Positions 18,654 through 26,255 of a stretch of DNA of 40,000 bases are shown piece by piece. This DNA comes from an uncultured SAR116 cluster alpha proteobacterium (GTDB taxonomy: Bacteria > Pseudomonadota > Alphaproteobacteria > Puniceispirillales > Marisalimonadaceae), in assembly GCA_902618195.1 (NCBI GenBank), contig CACMZO010000011.1:1-40000 (forward strand). The letters are read 5' to 3'. Each line of letters begins with the position of its first letter. Within the stretch, counting starts at the first letter, position 1. Position numbers and translations under genes: made by a program. The notes beneath the pieces were generated by a model. The model was not told the origin of the DNA and did no database searches. It saw only the letters and a list, made by a program, of their open reading frames with translations.

Positions 18654-18932
18654 ATGAATAGAAAAGCAAAAATAACTAATATTTTAAATGAAAATCTTGA
18701 TCTTTACAGATGTTATGTTTCAGATGTATCAGAATCACACAAAGGTCACAGTGGATATGTTAAGGGAGAGGAGACTCACTTTGAGGTTTTTATTATTTCA
18801 AATGATTTTGAAAATAAAAATAGATTAGAAAGACATAAAATGGTTAATAATTTTTTAAAAGATGAATTTTTAGGTTCTTTACATTCAATCACTTATAATT
18901 TGATGACAGTATCAGAAAGTAAGAAGAATTAA
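18654..18932 (+). CDS. bolA: BolA family protein
   Basis: A 92-residue BolA-like protein with the typical HSGYVKGEETHFEVFIIS and LERHKMVNNFLKDEF segments. BolA proteins pair with monothiol glutaredoxins, binding Fe-S clusters and influencing iron and cell-shape regulation. The conserved His in RHKMV is present. It is a single gene on the plus strand, divergent from the J-domain protein. Its stop overlaps the convergent DUF2889 gene by 4 nt. Which BolA subfamily it belongs to cannot be told by eye. Confidence 0.92.
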   Translation: MNRKAKITNILNENLDLYRCYVSDVSESHKGHSGYVKGEETHFEVFIISNDFENKNRLERHKMVNNFLKDEFLGSLHSITYNLMTVSESKKN

Positions 18933-19480
18933 TCTTCATACCATTTTGGCCATAATCTTTTAACAACTTCGCTATTAGTGTTAAATGCATGACAAGTCCC
19001 AAGAAGTAGCGGCTTTTCTTGATTATGATTTAATTTGGTCTCATTTCGATTTTTTTGTTTTGATTTGTAAGGATATATTGTTTGGAAAGCAGCTGTGGCT
19101 GCTGATGATAGCAACTCTGTTATATGAGTACAGCCATTTGTTGCACCTATTAATTTTGTTATTTCTCTCTTCCAGCCAGATTTAATTTGTAGCCCAATAA
19201 TTTTTTTGAAATTTGAGTTTGCATTTTTACAAATAGAATAAGGACTATTTTCTGTTTTAGCTTCTGCGTCTACAACAAACAATTTGTCATCAAGAACTAA
19301 TTTTATTTTCATTTGGTGTATGGGCTCGTCTTTTTTAATAGTACCTCTATCATGATTTTTAAAATCGTAATTTTTAGTATCTATTAATTCAGCTTCAATT
19401 TCAAAAAGTTTATCATCTCTGATATAGCCTTTAAAACTTATATTCCTGTTATGAAGTAATTTACGTTTTATTTTATTCAT
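18929..19480 (-). CDS. DUF2889 family protein
   Basis: A 183-residue protein of the DUF2889 family (PF11136), of unknown function. Recognisable features are the start region RNISFKGYIRDDKLFEIEAELIDTK, the central EPIHQMKIKLVLDD, and the conserved GATNGCTHITELLSSAATAAFQT with its Cys-Thr-His. I chose the ATG at 19480, which overlaps the stop of the upstream corC-like gene (TAATG). An ATG at 19501 would overlap by 22 nt and add residues not typical of the family. No signal peptide is present, so it is probably cytoplasmic. Confidence 0.85.
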   Translation of the reverse strand: MNKIKRKLLHNRNISFKGYIRDDKLFEIEAELIDTKNYDFKNHDRGTIKKDEPIHQMKIKLVLDDKLFVVDAEAKTENSPYSICKNANSNFKKIIGLQIKSGWKREITKLIGATNGCTHITELLSSAATAAFQTIYPYKSKQKNRNETKLNHNQEKPLLLGTCHAFNTNSEVVKRLWPKWYED

Positions 19481-20733
19481 TATTCTTCTAGTTCTTTCCA
19501 TAATCTCAATTTAGATAAAAAGTTTTTATCTTTTTGTAATATTCTAATTTTAATTCCAAAGAGTCTAAACTCTTGTCCAGGGTTTGGAATTGTTTTTGTT
19601 TCAAAAACAACCAACCCGGCAATAGTATTGTAATTTTCATCTGGTAAATCCCAAGCTAGAGAACGGTTTAAATCTCTTATTGTAACTGAACCGTCAATTA
19701 TCAAAGAGCCATCAGGTTGTGATTTTACACCTTCAACATTTATATCAGTTTCATCATCAATTTCTCCAACAATTTCTTCTAAAATATCTTCTAATGTCAC
19801 AATTCCACGAAAATCACCATATTCATTTACTACAATTGCAAAGTGCTCTTTCCTACCTCTGAAAATTTCTAATTGATCTAATATTGGTGTCGTTTCTGGG
19901 GCAAAGTATGGATCGATTAAAATATTTTTAAGATCAAATGATTTTGTATCCTTAAAATTGTTTCTTTGCAAAAATCTGAAAAGTTCTTTTGCATGCAATA
20001 TACCAATAATATTATCTTGTGTGCCCGAAAAAACAGGTATTCTAGTGTAGGGACTTTCTCCAACAATTTTATAAATATTTGCTGCAGATAAGTTAATATC
20101 AATCATTGTCACTACCCCTCTATGTGTCATGACTTCTTCGATATTTACGTCTTCAATGTCAATCATACTTGACATTATTTTTCCTCTTTCGATAGCCCTG
20201 GTTTCTTTTCCGGCATGCAATCTTATCATTCCTTTTAATTCTTCTGTCTTAGCTTCTTCGCTAGCATAATCTGGTCCAGTTATTAATTTTGAAAATTTTT
20301 CTGTTAAGAAAGTTAAAGGAGTAAAAACTATAATAATTAAATTAATTAATGGTGATACTATAAGTGCAATTTCATCTGCATTTTTAAGAGCATAAGTCTT
20401 TGGTATCATCTCAGCAAAAATGACAAGAATTATAGTTAATATAATTGTAATAATAATCAAAGGTATGTCTGTAAAATATTGTATTGCAAAACTAGTCGCA
20501 TATACTGAAGCAATTATATTTACAAAATTATTACCTATAAGTATTGTTCCAATCATTTTATCTCGATTTTTTAAAATCTTTTCGATTAATTTTGCTTTTT
20601 TATTTCCTTTGTTTACAAGCTCATTAATACGAGCTTCAGATACAGCTGTTAAGGCAGTTTCAGAGCTTGAAAAAAAAGCAGAACATATAATTAAAAATAA
20701 AATAATTAGTATAAAAATACTTAATTCATTCAT
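19480..20733 (-). CDS. HlyC/CorC (CNNM-CBS) membrane protein
   Basis: A 417-residue inner-membrane protein of the CorC/CNNM family, linked to Mg2+ or Co2+ efflux. The N-terminal CNNM (DUF21) domain (about 1-190, four membrane segments) starts with SAFFSSSETALTAVSEAR. A CBS pair follows (about 205-325, VMTHRGVVTMIDI and the HFAIVVNEYGDFRGIVTLEDILEEIVGEI segment). The protein ends in a CorC/HlyC transporter-associated domain (about 345-417). The old 'hemolysin' label is not supported. Its start overlaps the aroB stop by 8 nt (ATGAATGA). Confidence 0.93.
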   Translation of the reverse strand: MNELSIFILIILFLIICSAFFSSSETALTAVSEARINELVNKGNKKAKLIEKILKNRDKMIGTILIGNNFVNIIASVYATSFAIQYFTDIPLIIITIILTIILVIFAEMIPKTYALKNADEIALIVSPLINLIIIVFTPLTFLTEKFSKLITGPDYASEEAKTEELKGMIRLHAGKETRAIERGKIMSSMIDIEDVNIEEVMTHRGVVTMIDINLSAANIYKIVGESPYTRIPVFSGTQDNIIGILHAKELFRFLQRNNFKDTKSFDLKNILIDPYFAPETTPILDQLEIFRGRKEHFAIVVNEYGDFRGIVTLEDILEEIVGEIDDETDINVEGVKSQPDGSLIIDGSVTIRDLNRSLAWDLPDENYNTIAGLVVFETKTIPNPGQEFRLFGIKIRILQKDKNFLSKLRLWKELEE

Positions 20734-21865
20734 TTATCAACTCATTTAAAAATTTTTTTAATGTAATTTCATCTACATCATTTCTTATTAATGCACTTCC
20801 TATTCCATTAGATAAAATAAATGTAATTTTTCCGTTTTTAACTTTTTTATCTAAATAAAATTTATTTAAAAGTTTTTTTGATGATAATTTAATGTCCTTA
20901 ATGTCTTTTAATTTTGTTGGAAGATTAAATTTTGATATTAATTCTATACATCTCTTAGCTTCTTTTTTTGAACATAAATTCATATGGGCACTTAGTTTAA
21001 ATGCACAGGCCATTCCAATTGCAACGGCCTCACCATGAATTAATTTCTTACTATCATAATTTATTAAATTTTCAAATGCGTGGGCAAAAGTATGACCAAA
21101 ATTTAAAATGGCTCTTATGCTGTGTTCTTTTTCATCTATAGATACTATCTTTGCTTTAATTTGACATGATTGAAAAATAATATTTTCGATATATGGACTT
21201 TTTAGTTTTTTAATACTTTCAATATTTTTTTCTAAATAATTAAAGAACTTTTTATCATATATAAAGGAATATTTAATTACTTCTGCAAAGCCTGCTAAAA
21301 GCTCTCTTTCTGGAAGTGTTTTTAAAAAATTTATATCAATTAAAACTCCTTTTGGCTGATAAAAAGTTCCAACAAGGTTTTTTCCATGTTTTGTATTTAT
21401 TCCAGTTTTTCCTCCTACAGAACTATCTACTTGAGAAAGTAGAGTTGTTGGAATATGTATACATTGAACTCCCCTTAAAACAATGGAACTAGCAAGACCA
21501 ACCAAATCTCCTGTTACACCACCACCTATGGAAATAATAATAGAATCTCTATTAATTTTATGAGACAAAATTAAATTTAATAAAATTGAGAGTTTGTCAA
21601 AATTTTTGTTTTTATCTTTTGATTTGATTTTGAAAAAAAAATTTTCTGACCCTAGTTTAATTGATAATTTTTCAAAGTTTTCAATCAAATTTTTATGTAA
21701 TTGTAATTTATAAAAAAATTCATCATAAATTATAAAAATTTTTTTTCCTTTTAAAGTTTTGGAAAAATTCTTTTCCAATGTTTGAATGAAATTATTTCCT
21801 ATCAATATTGAGTATTTAAATGATTTATTCTCATTAATAACTGATATTTTTTTCAAGACAGTCAT
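20726..21865 (-). CDS. aroB: 3-dehydroquinate synthase
   Basis: Second enzyme of the shikimate pathway, converting DAHP to 3-dehydroquinate in the cytoplasm. The 379-residue protein has the NAD-binding SIGGGVTGDLVGLAAS-like segment, the IPTTLLSQVDSSVGGKTGIN signature, and the metal ligands in GFAEVIKY (Glu), LNFGHTFAHAFE (His) and HGEAVAIGM (His). The start overlaps the aroK stop by 4 nt (ATGA), so the aroK-aroB pair is translationally coupled, as in many proteobacteria. Confidence 0.97.
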   Translation of the reverse strand: MTVLKKISVINENKSFKYSILIGNNFIQTLEKNFSKTLKGKKIFIIYDEFFYKLQLHKNLIENFEKLSIKLGSENFFFKIKSKDKNKNFDKLSILLNLILSHKINRDSIIISIGGGVTGDLVGLASSIVLRGVQCIHIPTTLLSQVDSSVGGKTGINTKHGKNLVGTFYQPKGVLIDINFLKTLPERELLAGFAEVIKYSFIYDKKFFNYLEKNIESIKKLKSPYIENIIFQSCQIKAKIVSIDEKEHSIRAILNFGHTFAHAFENLINYDSKKLIHGEAVAIGMACAFKLSAHMNLCSKKEAKRCIELISKFNLPTKLKDIKDIKLSSKKLLNKFYLDKKVKNGKITFILSNGIGSALIRNDVDEITLKKFLNELINE

Positions 21866-22398
21866 GATATACCTTTTATTATTTTATTACATAAATCGTT
21901 AATAGAAAGATTATCTGTATTAATTTTTAAATGTGATTTTTGATAATTTTTAATTCTTTTATTTAATAACATTTCAATATTGGTCTCAACATTACCTTTT
22001 ATCATAGGCCTATTAAAAGCTTTGCCAACTCTTTTGCTTAAAACTTTGATGTCACTATTCAACCAAATCACCTTAGAATTATTTAGAAGAAATTCTCTAG
22101 TATTTTTACTTTCAAAAGCACCTCCACCTAAACTAATTATAGCCTTAACATTTTGACTTAAGCATTCACTTACTTTAAAAAAAATAACCTTTTCTTCTAT
22201 TAAACGAAAATGTTTCTCTCCAAACTTCTTAAAAATCTCACTTATTTTTAAATTTTTTTCTAATTCAATAATTGAGTCTATATCTAAAAAACTTATTCCT
22301 AATTTTTTAGCTAATACACTTCCACAACTAGTTTTACCAGAACCCATCATCCCTACTAAAGTAATTAACTTAATATTATTGTTTGTCATGGTATTCAT
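21862..22398 (-). CDS. aroK: Shikimate kinase
   Basis: Phosphorylates shikimate with ATP. About 178 residues, with Walker A GMMGSGKTS (16-24), the shikimate-binding FLDIDSIIE and FRLIEEKV segments, the ISLGGGAF loop, and the lid Arg region NRPMI. Three starts are possible (TTG 22407, ATG 22398, ATG 22389), and none has a clear ribosome binding site. I chose 22398, with doubt. It is the first gene of aroK-aroB-corC-DUF2889. Confidence 0.94.
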   Translation of the reverse strand: MNTMTNNNIKLITLVGMMGSGKTSCGSVLAKKLGISFLDIDSIIELEKNLKISEIFKKFGEKHFRLIEEKVIFFKVSECLSQNVKAIISLGGGAFESKNTREFLLNNSKVIWLNSDIKVLSKRVGKAFNRPMIKGNVETNIEMLLNKRIKNYQKSHLKINTDNLSINDLCNKIIKGIS

Positions 22399-22500
22399 AT
22401 ATTGCAACTATAACGTATATAAGCGATGAAAATTCATTTATTTTTAAAAAAATGTAAATAAAGACAAAAACTTGCCACAATCTTTTAATATCACACTTTA

Positions 22501-22629
22501 ATGAAAATTATAATTTCAATAATTTTTTTATTTATTGTAGGTTTTTTTACATATATTTACACATGGGATATACCTGTGCCAGAAAAAGAAGTAAAAAAAG
22601 AAATAAATATTTTGGATCTTAAAAAATAA
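22501..22629 (+). CDS. Small single-pass membrane protein, 42 residues
   Basis: An ATG-initiated reading frame of 42 codons. The N-terminal hydrophobic segment (MKIIISIIFLFIVGFFTYIYT) acts as a membrane anchor, followed by a short polar tail starting WDIPVPEKEVKKEI. The WDIPxPxKxVxKxI pattern recalls tiny conserved proteins that I associate with this locus in other alphaproteobacteria, but this is from memory and no function is known. It ends 4 nt before the start of the exported protein gene and is probably co-transcribed with it. It is small enough to be missed by gene finders. Confidence 0.68.
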   Translation: MKIIISIIFLFIVGFFTYIYTWDIPVPEKEVKKEINILDLKK

Positions 22630-22633
22630 ATTT

Positions 22634-24355
22634 ATGAAATTATTATTTATTTTATTCTTAGCTTTATTTTCAAACTCTGCTTTTCCTCAGACACTAAAAA
22701 ACTCCGACGATAACTTTATCAATTTAACAAATGAAATAAAAGGTGACCAAAAAACATCAAATGATGTTAAAAATGATAAAACAATTGACAAACAAAGTGA
22801 TAATGAAACCAAAAAATTAGAACCTGTTATTATCGGCAAGCTTGAAATACCTTCCCTAGGTTCTATTGGTGTAGAAACAAATTTAAATAAAAAAAAGGGT
22901 TTAAGTTTATGGAGTGATTTTACAGCTAATGATGCAATAAAGTATTTAAATTTATTACCAAATAATATCTCTAGTAGAGCTTATCAAAGATTTTTAAATG
23001 AAGTATATGCCAGTACATCTGAACCGCCTAAAGGAAATTCTGATGAAATTTCTAAATTTTTAGAGACTAGATTGGTCAAATTAGCTTTAAATGGTCAAAC
23101 AGATTATTTAATAAAAATAATTTCTCAATTGCCTGATAGTCCAAAATGGGAGAGTTGGAAGAAATGGTATGTGATTCATCATTTTTTAGTTAAAGACGAT
23201 ACTAATGCTTGTCTTAAAATATCCAATACAACTAAGAATTATGATAGTATTTTTTGGAAAAAAGCTAATCTATTATGTCTTATTCTTCAAAGAAATTTAT
23301 CTGAAGCAAATTTCATATTTGATGTTATGCGCTCTCAAAATTTATTAGATGAAACTTATGAAACACTAATTGATAAAATTTTAAACGAAAAACAATTAGA
23401 AAAATTCAATTTTAAAGATAAATCAGTTACACCACTCAATTTGATTTTGTTAGATATAACTAAGTATCCAATTAGTTTTGAAATGATAAAAGATTTTGGT
23501 TTTGAATATAAGTGGCAATTATCAAACCTAATATATTTAAAGCCTGAAGCAAGAGCATTGCTTATTGATCAAATAACGACAGTTAAAGATATAAATAGTG
23601 ATTTATTAATTAAAATATATCAAGACATTAAACTTGAAAGTTCTAATCAAGATGAGACACTAAAAAGTTTAAATTTAAATCCTAATGGATTGATTAGAGC
23701 TAAGGTTTGGCAAAATGCAATGAAAATTAAAGATAGTTCGGAAAAAACTGAATTTATACTAAAAAGTCTTTTAATTGAAAACAAACATAATAATTCTAAA
23801 ATAGCCTCAGAGCTATACATTCCATCTTTGATTTCCTTAAAAACTAATTCATTGTCTCAATCCCAAGCTCAGCATATCAACTACATATATAATCTCAATA
23901 ATCCAGAAAAATTTGTTGATTCACCTTTTTCACAAATATTGTTAGATCCTAAAAATAAAGTGTGGGATGAACAATTTATCTCACGACACAACGCTTGGAA
24001 TCTTGTTAATTTCCTTAGCTATTTAGGGATGCGGTCACCTGAAATTACGTGGGAAAATAATCTTAATTCCATGTCAAAAGATATAAAAAAAATAAATGAT
24101 AAATTTTCTTTAAATATTTCTTATGAAGATTTTATTTTAAGTAGGGGAATTTCTAATAATATTAAAGAAAAAAATTATTTAAAGGCAATTTTATTAATTG
24201 GTAAATTGATAGGTGAAAATGAATTAAAATTTTTAAATTTAACAACTTTTCAAGCAATTGATATGTATTTAACTGATTTAGATTTTTTAACTTTACGTGA
24301 TGAATTTAGAAAAGAAGTTTTATATGAAAAATTTTTCTATTCAAAAAATCTTTAA
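22634..24355 (+). CDS. Exported conserved protein of unknown function
   Basis: A 573-residue protein with a clear signal peptide ([19 protein letters not shown], cleavage near residue 19), so it is periplasmic or outer-membrane associated. A charged, low-complexity segment follows (about 20-65, rich in Lys, Asp and Asn). The rest looks all-helical, with repeated leucine-rich stretches resembling a solenoid or TPR-like fold. It resembles long hypothetical proteins located before xerD in alphaproteobacteria, sometimes mislabelled 'antifreeze' proteins. I recognise no enzyme motif. Its upstream neighbour is the 42-residue membrane protein and downstream is xerD, 1 nt away. Confidence 0.82.
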
Positions 24356-24356
24356 A

Positions 24357-25298
24357 ATGAATTTTGATAAAAATAAAATTAACGAAATAATTGAAAACTT
24401 TGTTTCTACAAAAGTTTTAGATAAAGGAATTACAAGTAATACTATTACAGCTTACAAAAAAGATTTAAATCTGTTTACTAATTGGTGTCTAATTAATCAA
24501 ATTAGTTTGATTGAAGCTAAAAAAAAAGACATAAATATTTATATTCATTTTTTAAAAGAACAAAATTTAAATAGTTCTTCAATTAATAGAAAATTATCTG
24601 TTATTAAAAGTTTTTATGATTATTTGTATCAAATAAATTTCATAAATTTTAATGAACTAAAAACAATAGTAACACAGAAATTAGAAAAGAATTTACCAAA
24701 ACTTTTATCGGAAAAAGAAATATTATATCTCATAGATAAATCTAGAGAATTGTATGTTAAAAATCCTATTAAAAATATATCTTATCTACGAACTCAGGTA
24801 ATTTTAGAGATTTTATATTCAACTGGTCTTCGTATCAGTGAATTGTTAAATATTAAAATCAACCAAGTGGCAAATATAAAAGATAAATTGTATATAAATG
24901 GTAAGGGTAATAAACAGAGATTAGTAATATTTAATAAAAATGCTTTAGATTTATTAAAAAAATGGATTAGTATAATGATTAAGAATAATAAAAATAAAAA
25001 CTCTTATCTTTTTGAAAATATTCACAACATAAAAGTTATTTCTCGACAACAAATATATAAAGATCTTAAAAAGTTAGCACTTAAAACAAATACAGACTTA
25101 GAAAAACTTTCTCCTCATTCGATAAGACATTCTTTCGCTAGTCACATGCTAAATAGAGGAGCAGATCTAAGAAGTATTCAAAAGCTTTTGGGACATTCTG
25201 ACATATCAACAACAGAAATTTATACACAAGTTAGACAAAATAGGCTAAAAGGTTTAGTAAATAATATTCATCCACTGAGCAATATACTAAAAAGGTAG
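24357..25298 (+). CDS. xerD: Tyrosine recombinase XerD
   Basis: Site-specific recombinase that resolves chromosome dimers at dif together with XerC and FtsK. The protein is 313 residues: an N-terminal SAM-like DNA-binding domain (about 8-100) and a C-terminal catalytic domain with Arg159 ([10 protein letters not shown]), Lys in GKGNKQR (183/186), His254 and Arg257 ([12 protein letters not shown]), His280 (LLGH) and the nucleophile Tyr289 (TEIYTQV). The C-terminal ending with NNIHPLS fits XerD better than XerC. I chose the ATG at 24357, 1 nt after the upstream stop; an in-frame ATG at 24324 would overlap that gene. It sits among housekeeping genes, not a mobile element. Confidence 0.92.
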
Positions 25299-25310: not shown

Positions 25311-26255
25311 ATGATTAAACATTTTTTAACATTTGAAAAAAATATAGCTGACCTTGAAGGGAAAATAGAAGATTTAAAACATATTTCATCAAACTCTGAT
25401 TTAAATATTGCTGAAGAAATTGGTAAATTACAAAATAAAGTAGCAGATGAATTAACGGATACTTATTCTAATTTAAATCCTTGGCAAAAAGTTCAAGTAG
25501 CAAGACATCCTGACAGGCCACAGTTTCAAGATGTTATTGAGCACTTAATTGATGGTTATTTGAGTTTAGGGGGAGATCGATTATTTGGTAATGATAATGC
25601 TCTTACAGGGGGGGTAGGCTACTTTAGAGGAAAAAAAGTATTATTGCTAGGCATTGATAAAGGTAAGAATACTAACGATAGAATTTTGAGAAACTTTGGC
25701 ATGGCTAGACCCGAAGGTTACAGAAAAGCTATCAGATTAATGGGATTAGCTAATAGATTTAATTTACCTGTACTTTCTTTTATTGATACAGCCGGTGCAT
25801 ATCCAGGCAAAGGAGCTGAGGAAAGGGGACAAGCTCAAGCTATTGCATCATGTGTTGATGCATGTTTAAAGTTAAACACACCAATGATTTCTACAATTCT
25901 AGGGGAAGGTGGCTCTGGAGGAGCTATTGCATTAACTTCTGGAAATGTAATTCTAATGTTTGAACATTCAATTTTTTCAGTAATTTCTCCTGAAGGTTGT
26001 GCGTCTATTTTGTGGAGAGATGCAAGTAAAGCTAACGAGGCTGCAAAAGCTTTAAAATTAACTGCTAAAGATATGAAAAAACTAAACATCATTGATGAAA
26101 TTATTCAAGAGCCTTTAGGAGGGGCTCATAGAGATTATAACAAATCTTTAACACTTTTAGGAGATTCTATTGAGTTACAACTTAATGAATTACTTAGACT
26201 TGATCCAGAAGAATTGAAAATAATAAAACAAAATAAATATTTAAAAATCACATAG
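25311..26255 (+). CDS. accA: Acetyl-CoA carboxylase carboxyltransferase subunit alpha
   Basis: Alpha subunit of the carboxyltransferase that makes malonyl-CoA for fatty-acid synthesis; it works with AccD. The 314-residue protein has an N-terminal coiled coil (about 8-50), then PWQKVQVARHPDRPQ, RNFGMARPEGYRKAIRLM and IDTAGAYPGKGAEERGQ. The oxyanion-hole region EGGSGGAIAL follows, and SPEGCASILWRD lies near the end. All are standard. It starts 12 nt after xerD, so the plus-strand run from the 42-residue protein to accA looks like one operon. The 3' end is 15 nt from the convergent nitrilase gene. Confidence 0.97.
   Translation: MIKHFLTFEKNIADLEGKIEDLKHISSNSDLNIAEEIGKLQNKVADELTDTYSNLNPWQKVQVARHPDRPQFQDVIEHLIDGYLSLGGDRLFGNDNALTGGVGYFRGKKVLLLGIDKGKNTNDRILRNFGMARPEGYRKAIRLMGLANRFNLPVLSFIDTAGAYPGKGAEERGQAQAIASCVDACLKLNTPMISTILGEGGSGGAIALTSGNVILMFEHSIFSVISPEGCASILWRDASKANEAAKALKLTAKDMKKLNIIDEIIQEPLGGAHRDYNKSLTLLGDSIELQLNELLRLDPEELKIIKQNKYLKIT

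Follow-up and report, generated by a model that had tools for sequence, protein, structure and literature searches.

A small membrane protein and an exported helical protein encoded ahead of xerD: an old gene pair of the Alphaproteobacteria and a possible periplasmic scaffold

In the genome of an uncultured SAR116-cluster alphaproteobacterium, a 42-residue membrane protein and a 573-residue exported protein are encoded immediately ahead of the recombinase gene xerD. The question raised by this locus is whether the two proteins work together, and at what, or whether they and xerD are merely neighbors. The original prediction, which could name a function for neither protein, read the close spacing as a sign of one transcript and perhaps of one cell-envelope task, and allowed that the link to xerD might be only a matter of operon layout.

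The window (the whole 40,000-nt stretch of DNA analyzed here) belongs to a genome estimated to be 60.73% complete, and the close relatives of its encoded proteins are found in loci of SAR116-cluster genomes and one Alphaproteobacteria MAG. On the minus strand lie a CNNM/HlyC-type transporter-like gene (19480..20733), aroB (20726..21865), and aroK (21862..22407), the last divergent from the genes considered here. They are followed on the plus strand by the small gene (22501..22629), the large gene (22634..24355), xerD (24357..25298), which encodes a tyrosine recombinase, and accA (25311..26255), a conserved downstream neighbor. Coordinates of accA and the minus-strand genes are from the ORF list and a comparison of loci; the names xerD, accA, aroK, aroB, and CNNM/HlyC-type are putative assignments from the sequences. 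A 190-aa minus-strand frame (18929-19501) shares about 20 nt with the end of the CNNM-like gene. The first start codon of the xerD frame in the ORF list is a GTG at 24297, with an in-frame ATG downstream at 24357. The stop codon of the small ORF is separated by 4 nt from the ATG of the large one, whose own stop (TAA, 24353-24355) is a single base from this xerD ATG, so that the coordinates and spacings given in the original prediction are confirmed. In many relatives the small and large frames may overlap, and the choice of start codon sets the extent at some 14-26 nt. Because of these gaps of 4 and 1 nt and the possible overlaps elsewhere, it is likely that the pair and xerD form one transcription unit, as had been proposed. 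A search of the stretch for terminator-like sites gave none, with just 0.3 expected by chance, and a promoter scan returned 13 sites against 15.6 expected.

Both frames appear among relatives as genes with conserved surroundings. A set of 61 related genomes, which counts the window's own, has matches to the large ORF in 51; among the 24 genomes with completeness of 90% or more and contamination of 5% or less, 23 have one. Fifty-six loci were compared, six of them (L031-L036) copies or near-copies of genomes already counted, with one matched genome (G052) left out. A homologous xerD lies beside the large gene in all 56, and aroK is upstream in 54; in the remaining two (L020 and L046) the locus is bounded on one side by the edge of its contig. 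A small frame with a transmembrane (TM) segment, identified by eye from the frame list, is found just upstream of the large gene in 41 of 50 loci. The nine without it are all nine loci of one family (f2) of the window's order, and one of them is cut by a contig end. Among eight of the nine same-genus loci (L009, with ambiguous residues and a different length, was omitted), the nonsynonymous/synonymous ratio of the small frame is 0.29 over 28 pairs, which are not independent of one another, whereas the two remaining forward frames of this gene give 0.97 and 1.86. A ratio near one had been named in advance as the result that would speak against the small frame; judged from these sequence comparisons, it is under selection at the protein level. 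The corresponding value for the large gene is 0.26, from the 11 of 28 pairs that were of equal length (17 were dropped).

The product of the small gene (MKIIISIIFLFIVGFFTYIYTWDIPVPEKEVKKEINILDLKK), known from the ORF list, its protein-level conservation, and its class-wide family, reads as a single-pass membrane protein. Family members have around 45 residues, with a positive start, one TM segment, a W-x-I-P-x-P motif, and a tail that in many cases ends like KVIPNDRFPK. In the window the TM segment, as read from the sequence, covers approximately residues 3-21 (22507..22563, plus strand), and the motif, here W-D-I-P-V-P, residues 22-27 (22564..22581, plus strand). The motif is the most conserved part of the family; in a 24-row alignment P25 and P27 are invariant and W22 is nearly so. 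Flanking charges were counted in 93 of 112 homologs, the 19 others being dropped because P-x-P was not in place or the TM segment could not be located. The N-terminal flank has on average 1.77 K+R to 0.27 D+E; the tail is also slightly positive (2.96 vs. 2.44), and the net charge of the N-terminal flank exceeds that of the tail in just 50 of the 93. The small protein is probably an anchor with its N-terminus inside and its C-terminus outside, which would place the W-x-I-P-x-P motif just beyond the membrane; the charge of the tail does not decide between the two orientations.

The large gene is defined by its ORF and by homolog profiles. Its product begins with a hydrophobic stretch that looks like a signal peptide, approximately residues 1-18 (22634..22687, plus strand; the cleavage site is a predicted one), and the same kind of start, assessed by hydrophobicity rather than with a signal predictor, is seen among the homologs listed. 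Of 184 large frames, 128 passed filters for completeness, hydrophobic start, length of at least 450 aa, and unambiguous sequence, with close copies left out; these range from 504 to 785 aa (median 621.5). An alignment of 76 rows, made up of 75 non-redundant sequences not picked for cysteine plus the window's own, has a mean identity of 13%. Its sole invariant columns are two cysteines, Cys193 (codon 23210..23212, plus strand) and Cys215 (23276..23278, plus strand), and 38 of the 76 proteins have exactly two Cys. A partly blind check comes from a genome (G274) in which the large-protein profiles found nothing, yet the frame in the corresponding slot encodes a protein of 485 aa that begins like a signal peptide and has two Cys and no more, at a spacing of 23 residues compared to 22 in the window. 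Since the protein appears to be exported and these two cysteines never change, they probably form a disulfide; a signal-like start together with a Cys pair conserved in 76 of 76 is the sequence pattern expected of a periplasmic, disulfide-bonded protein. One large homolog in family f2 (L056, genome G043), where no small gene was found, has a lipobox-like end (FVVAC) to its start segment, which suggests that a lipoprotein form of the large protein can occur where the small anchor gene is not found.

An envelope task for the pair is likely, given the signal-like starts, the invariant cysteine pair, and the TM segment. This part of the original prediction stands, but the idea of a single shared task is incomplete, with 15 genomes keeping the small gene alone (see below). 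AlphaFold2, run on seven close SAR116 sequences, returned a helical model with a pattern of helix pairs, but at low confidence (mean pLDDT 45.9).

Database searches placed neither protein in a known family. Pfam and NCBIfam gave nothing above cut-off for the window's proteins, for a few homologs of each, or for the 76-row large set; the 22-row large alignment was also scanned against Pfam. A profile search of solved structures with the 22-row alignment gave chance matches only, and PDB sequences gave partial matches to the large protein, none better than E 0.007. TPR profiles did not match the window's large protein, and among the 76 members there were weak matches to TPR_19 in two (best 8.8e-4), TPR_11 in one, and TPR_14 in one; comparison of the large-protein profile with itself showed no convincing internal repeat. 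From the weak TPR matches and the low-confidence helical model, a periplasmic TPR-like helical solenoid is the likely form of this protein.

The original prediction had proposed conservation and synteny across the alphaproteobacteria as a check, and both were found. A small-protein profile of 24 rows has matches at E 0.01 in 218 of 387 alphaproteobacterial genomes; its seeds were frames beside the large gene and so biased, while the genome search itself was not. Large-protein profiles matched 226 of the 387 with 22 rows and 266 with 76. With the latter, 192 genomes have both genes, 74 the large only, 26 the small only, and 95 neither (Fisher odds ratio 9.5, p ~6e-21, uncorrected for shared ancestry, which partly accounts for the association). 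Where both places are among the matches listed, the genes are adjacent in 104 of 106 genomes, with the small one upstream on the same strand, and in 102 of these 104 it is at most 460 nt from the large-protein match. In the two non-adjacent cases the genes are on different contigs, and the large-gene match starts less than 70 nt from a contig end.

The small gene is probably more widespread than 218 of 387, since in 22 of 42 large-gene loci whose small slot is negative by profile a TM frame of 36-90 aa ends there, compared with 8 of 318 control windows taken from those loci; six further loci are cut by contig ends. These frames often have a different tail, and the other 20 of the 42 slots contain no TM frame. 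In a scan of the phylum, 62 of 299 genomes matched the large protein, 60 of them in the class. The two matches outside it cover the same 44-residue stretch, within frames bearing an SLT domain; because these short matches are the only ones, the large protein appears at this sensitivity to be restricted to the Alphaproteobacteria. A search of a plasmid collection with one homolog of each protein gave no match.

Losses of one gene or the other are informative about how far the two depend on each other. In 15 of the 26 small-only genomes, spread over 10 families, the small gene is directly before xerD with neither room for a large gene nor a match to one anywhere in the genome. The small matches in three of these (G159, G319, and G382) are weak (E 0.002-0.009) and rest on position. 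The remaining small-only genomes vary. Two may be false, one (G170) with a match at E 0.001 and a 939-aa frame covering the place, the other (G246) missed by the second profile. One is G274, with its divergent large gene; in two the large-gene slot is split (G085) or holds a C-terminal remnant (G390); two (G384 and G437) break off immediately downstream of the small gene; and in four (G065, G392, G239, and G314) the small gene is away from xerD. The remnant (L150, 5164-5677 in small-gene orientation) is a short frame which by eye resembles the C-terminus of the large protein and stands before xerD; the large gene is apparently being lost there while its small neighbor is kept. The split slot (L155, 5126-6585) consists of two frames where G274, of the same family, has one intact, and represents either an assembly error or a broken gene. 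Since the small gene persists in 15 genomes in which no large one was detected, its product must do more than anchor the large protein.

The relationship to xerD is close but not constant. Downstream of the large gene, in 120 loci with room, xerD is next in 113, accA in three, and neither in four; this set and the 41 loci used below include many chosen as unusual rather than at random, and one genome (G229) is counted twice in the 120. In three of the four "neither" loci (G212, G353, and G417) xerD is some 3-4 kb further on. The three with accA directly after the large gene are L157 (G194), L160 (G373), and L189 (G403), and in the first two the small-large pair is intact ahead of it. The XerD family model was applied to 15 genomes other than the window's. 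Five of the large-gene genomes give no more than distant recombinase matches (G194, 47 bits; G403, 35; G373, 74; G234, 70; and G309, 69), compared with 212-334 bits in eight others. In G373, G234, and G309 this match extends over almost the full profile and may represent a divergent working recombinase. All five genomes are streamlined, at 1.2-1.6 Mb, and their dimer-resolution system may be unusual. Two single-contig genomes of 1.5 Mb (L126 in G239 and L139 in G314) keep the small gene, with no match in either the large-protein or the XerD-family search; they share a genus with genomes of 5.4-5.6 Mb and look like reduced symbionts. Each of the genes is therefore separable from another, as small-only genomes, large-only genomes, and genomes with the pair but without a close XerD all occur.

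These patterns bear on two rival explanations. According to one, the pair assists XerD or couples the resolution of chromosome dimers to the cell envelope where division takes place. The persistence of xerD as next gene fits this, as does its position directly after the small gene where the large one is lost, and evolutionary distances of the large protein and XerD remain correlated after correction (mirror-tree partial r 0.397, 0 of 999 permutations, 41 loci). It is nonetheless improbable, with accA in the place of xerD in three genomes, only distant recombinase matches (35-74 bits) in five, and an exported large protein, whereas XerD is cytoplasmic. The mirror-tree test in any case is non-specific, because small-aroB (partial r 0.298, 0/999), a combination without common function, and large-xerD couple comparably to small-large (partial r 0.357, 0/999), and it does not favor the small protein over XerD as partner of the large one. 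A dedicated role as XerD helper is unlikely, and the link looks mostly like gene layout. The original caution on this point was reasonable. The other explanation extends layout to the pair itself: two separate envelope proteins would be encoded on one transcript through an accident of long ago, with the small one having another partner and the large one working alone. The natural losses keep this alive, as 15 genomes retain a small gene with no large one, other genomes have a large gene with no small one detected, and the order aroB-aroK, pair, xerD-accA is largely frozen even around genes that have no common function. Against it, the two genes remain together in genomes where accA takes the place of xerD (G194 and G373), and the possible overlaps of the two frames in many relatives favor coupled synthesis. 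On balance it is rather less probable than a working pair, though a good deal more credible than a XerD helper.

A further alternative concerns the large protein alone, which could be a relic of the soluble lytic transglycosylase Slt, consisting of its superhelical part without the catalytic domain and still binding peptidoglycan. Slt of P. aeruginosa is the best solved-structure match of the large profile (E 0.007 over 44 residues) and the top Foldseek match of the low-confidence model, although at E 0.33 and TM 0.17 in a list that is non-significant throughout, and the only two phylum matches outside the class lie in frames with an SLT domain, as noted above. With hhalign, the large family scored 36.8 against seven Slt proteins of the class, compared to at most 16.6 for 20 column shuffles, but the score falls to 32.3 (probability 5.9%) with 13 Slt rows. 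In single-sequence comparisons the best of 18 Slt proteins reached 32.1 (median 16.4), and 30 ordinary TPR proteins did nearly as well (best 29.1, median 15.6), so that the similarity to Slt is not clearly above that to TPR proteins in general. Neither the catalytic SLT domain (PF01464) nor SLT_L was detected in the 76 members at E 0.1. Descent from Slt is accordingly doubtful, to about the same degree as a role with XerD.

The reading that best accommodates the pair is a membrane-tethered periplasmic scaffold of the Alphaproteobacteria, and we regard its chances as about even. The large protein would be exported and form a helical solenoid of TPR-like type, in which Cys193 and Cys215 are joined as a disulfide staple. 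The small one would sit in the inner membrane, N-terminus inside, with a tail of about 20 residues that carries W-x-I-P-x-P outside, and would bring the solenoid to the membrane, along with a further partner in certain lineages. Such a scaffold would most likely dock proteins that build or remodel the envelope, with xerD as a co-transcribed neighbor and not a partner. We infer its topology, disulfide, solenoid fold, physical contact, independence of XerD, and kind of task; envelope biogenesis is a natural guess from location alone. The large-only loci of family f2, the 20 of 42 profile-negative slots that have no TM frame, and the small-only genomes count against it, and the low model confidence and the failure to find an internal repeat weigh against the fold. 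A more specific version, in which a disulfide-stapled solenoid and a protein of about 45 residues make up an undescribed ancestral module and the tail of the latter serves a second partner, falls somewhat short of that even standing. If true, it would explain both the small gene on its own and the retention of the pair in 1.2-Mb genomes without a close XerD.

Whatever its task, the sequence comparisons indicate that the pair is old and widely kept in the Alphaproteobacteria, with both genes real, tightly linked, class-wide, and each separable. Searches of titles and abstract starts found no literature on it, and neither xerD nor shikimate occurs in the main text of PMC2241609. The pair itself, the cysteine signature, and the pattern of losses are not described in anything found. 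Genes kept through much of a major bacterial class, even in complete genomes of 1.2 Mb, normally have an important function, and a protein as small as the shorter one is easily missed by annotation. A role can be tested directly in culturable relatives, with the motif, the two cysteines, and the losses seen in nature as starting points.

Periplasmic helical adaptors with a small membrane partner are a known kind of system, and among these the large protein is most like the periplasmic TPR adaptors of the CpoB/YbgF type, with which NlpI and LbcA may presumably be grouped. Like them it appears to be exported and helical, with no recognized catalytic domain; entries with NlpI and LbcA occur far down the non-significant Foldseek list. 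It differs in being encoded between aroK and xerD rather than with tol-pal, in its invariant Cys pair, and in having a small TM partner gene. Identity with CpoB/YbgF itself was considered and rejected, given this neighborhood, the lack of a match to TIGR02795 (tol_pal_ybgF) in the 76 members at E 0.1, and hhalign scores at background level (at most 18.6) against 18 YbgF-family frames. The resemblance to Slt is confined to a stretch of some 44-138 columns corresponding to its TPR-like part, and the large protein differs from Slt in being without the catalytic SLT domain. The C-terminal family of FimV/HubP (TIGR03504) is also TPR-like; one of the 76 members matches it, at 0.0054, and the other 75 do not at E 0.1. 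Small single-pass membrane proteins encoded beside a partner are likewise a known kind, and the small gene resembles them in its product of about 45 aa with one TM segment and a short tail, and in lying close to the gene that follows or overlapping it. It differs in belonging to no Pfam or NCBIfam family, among the members scanned, and in outliving its neighbor in several families.
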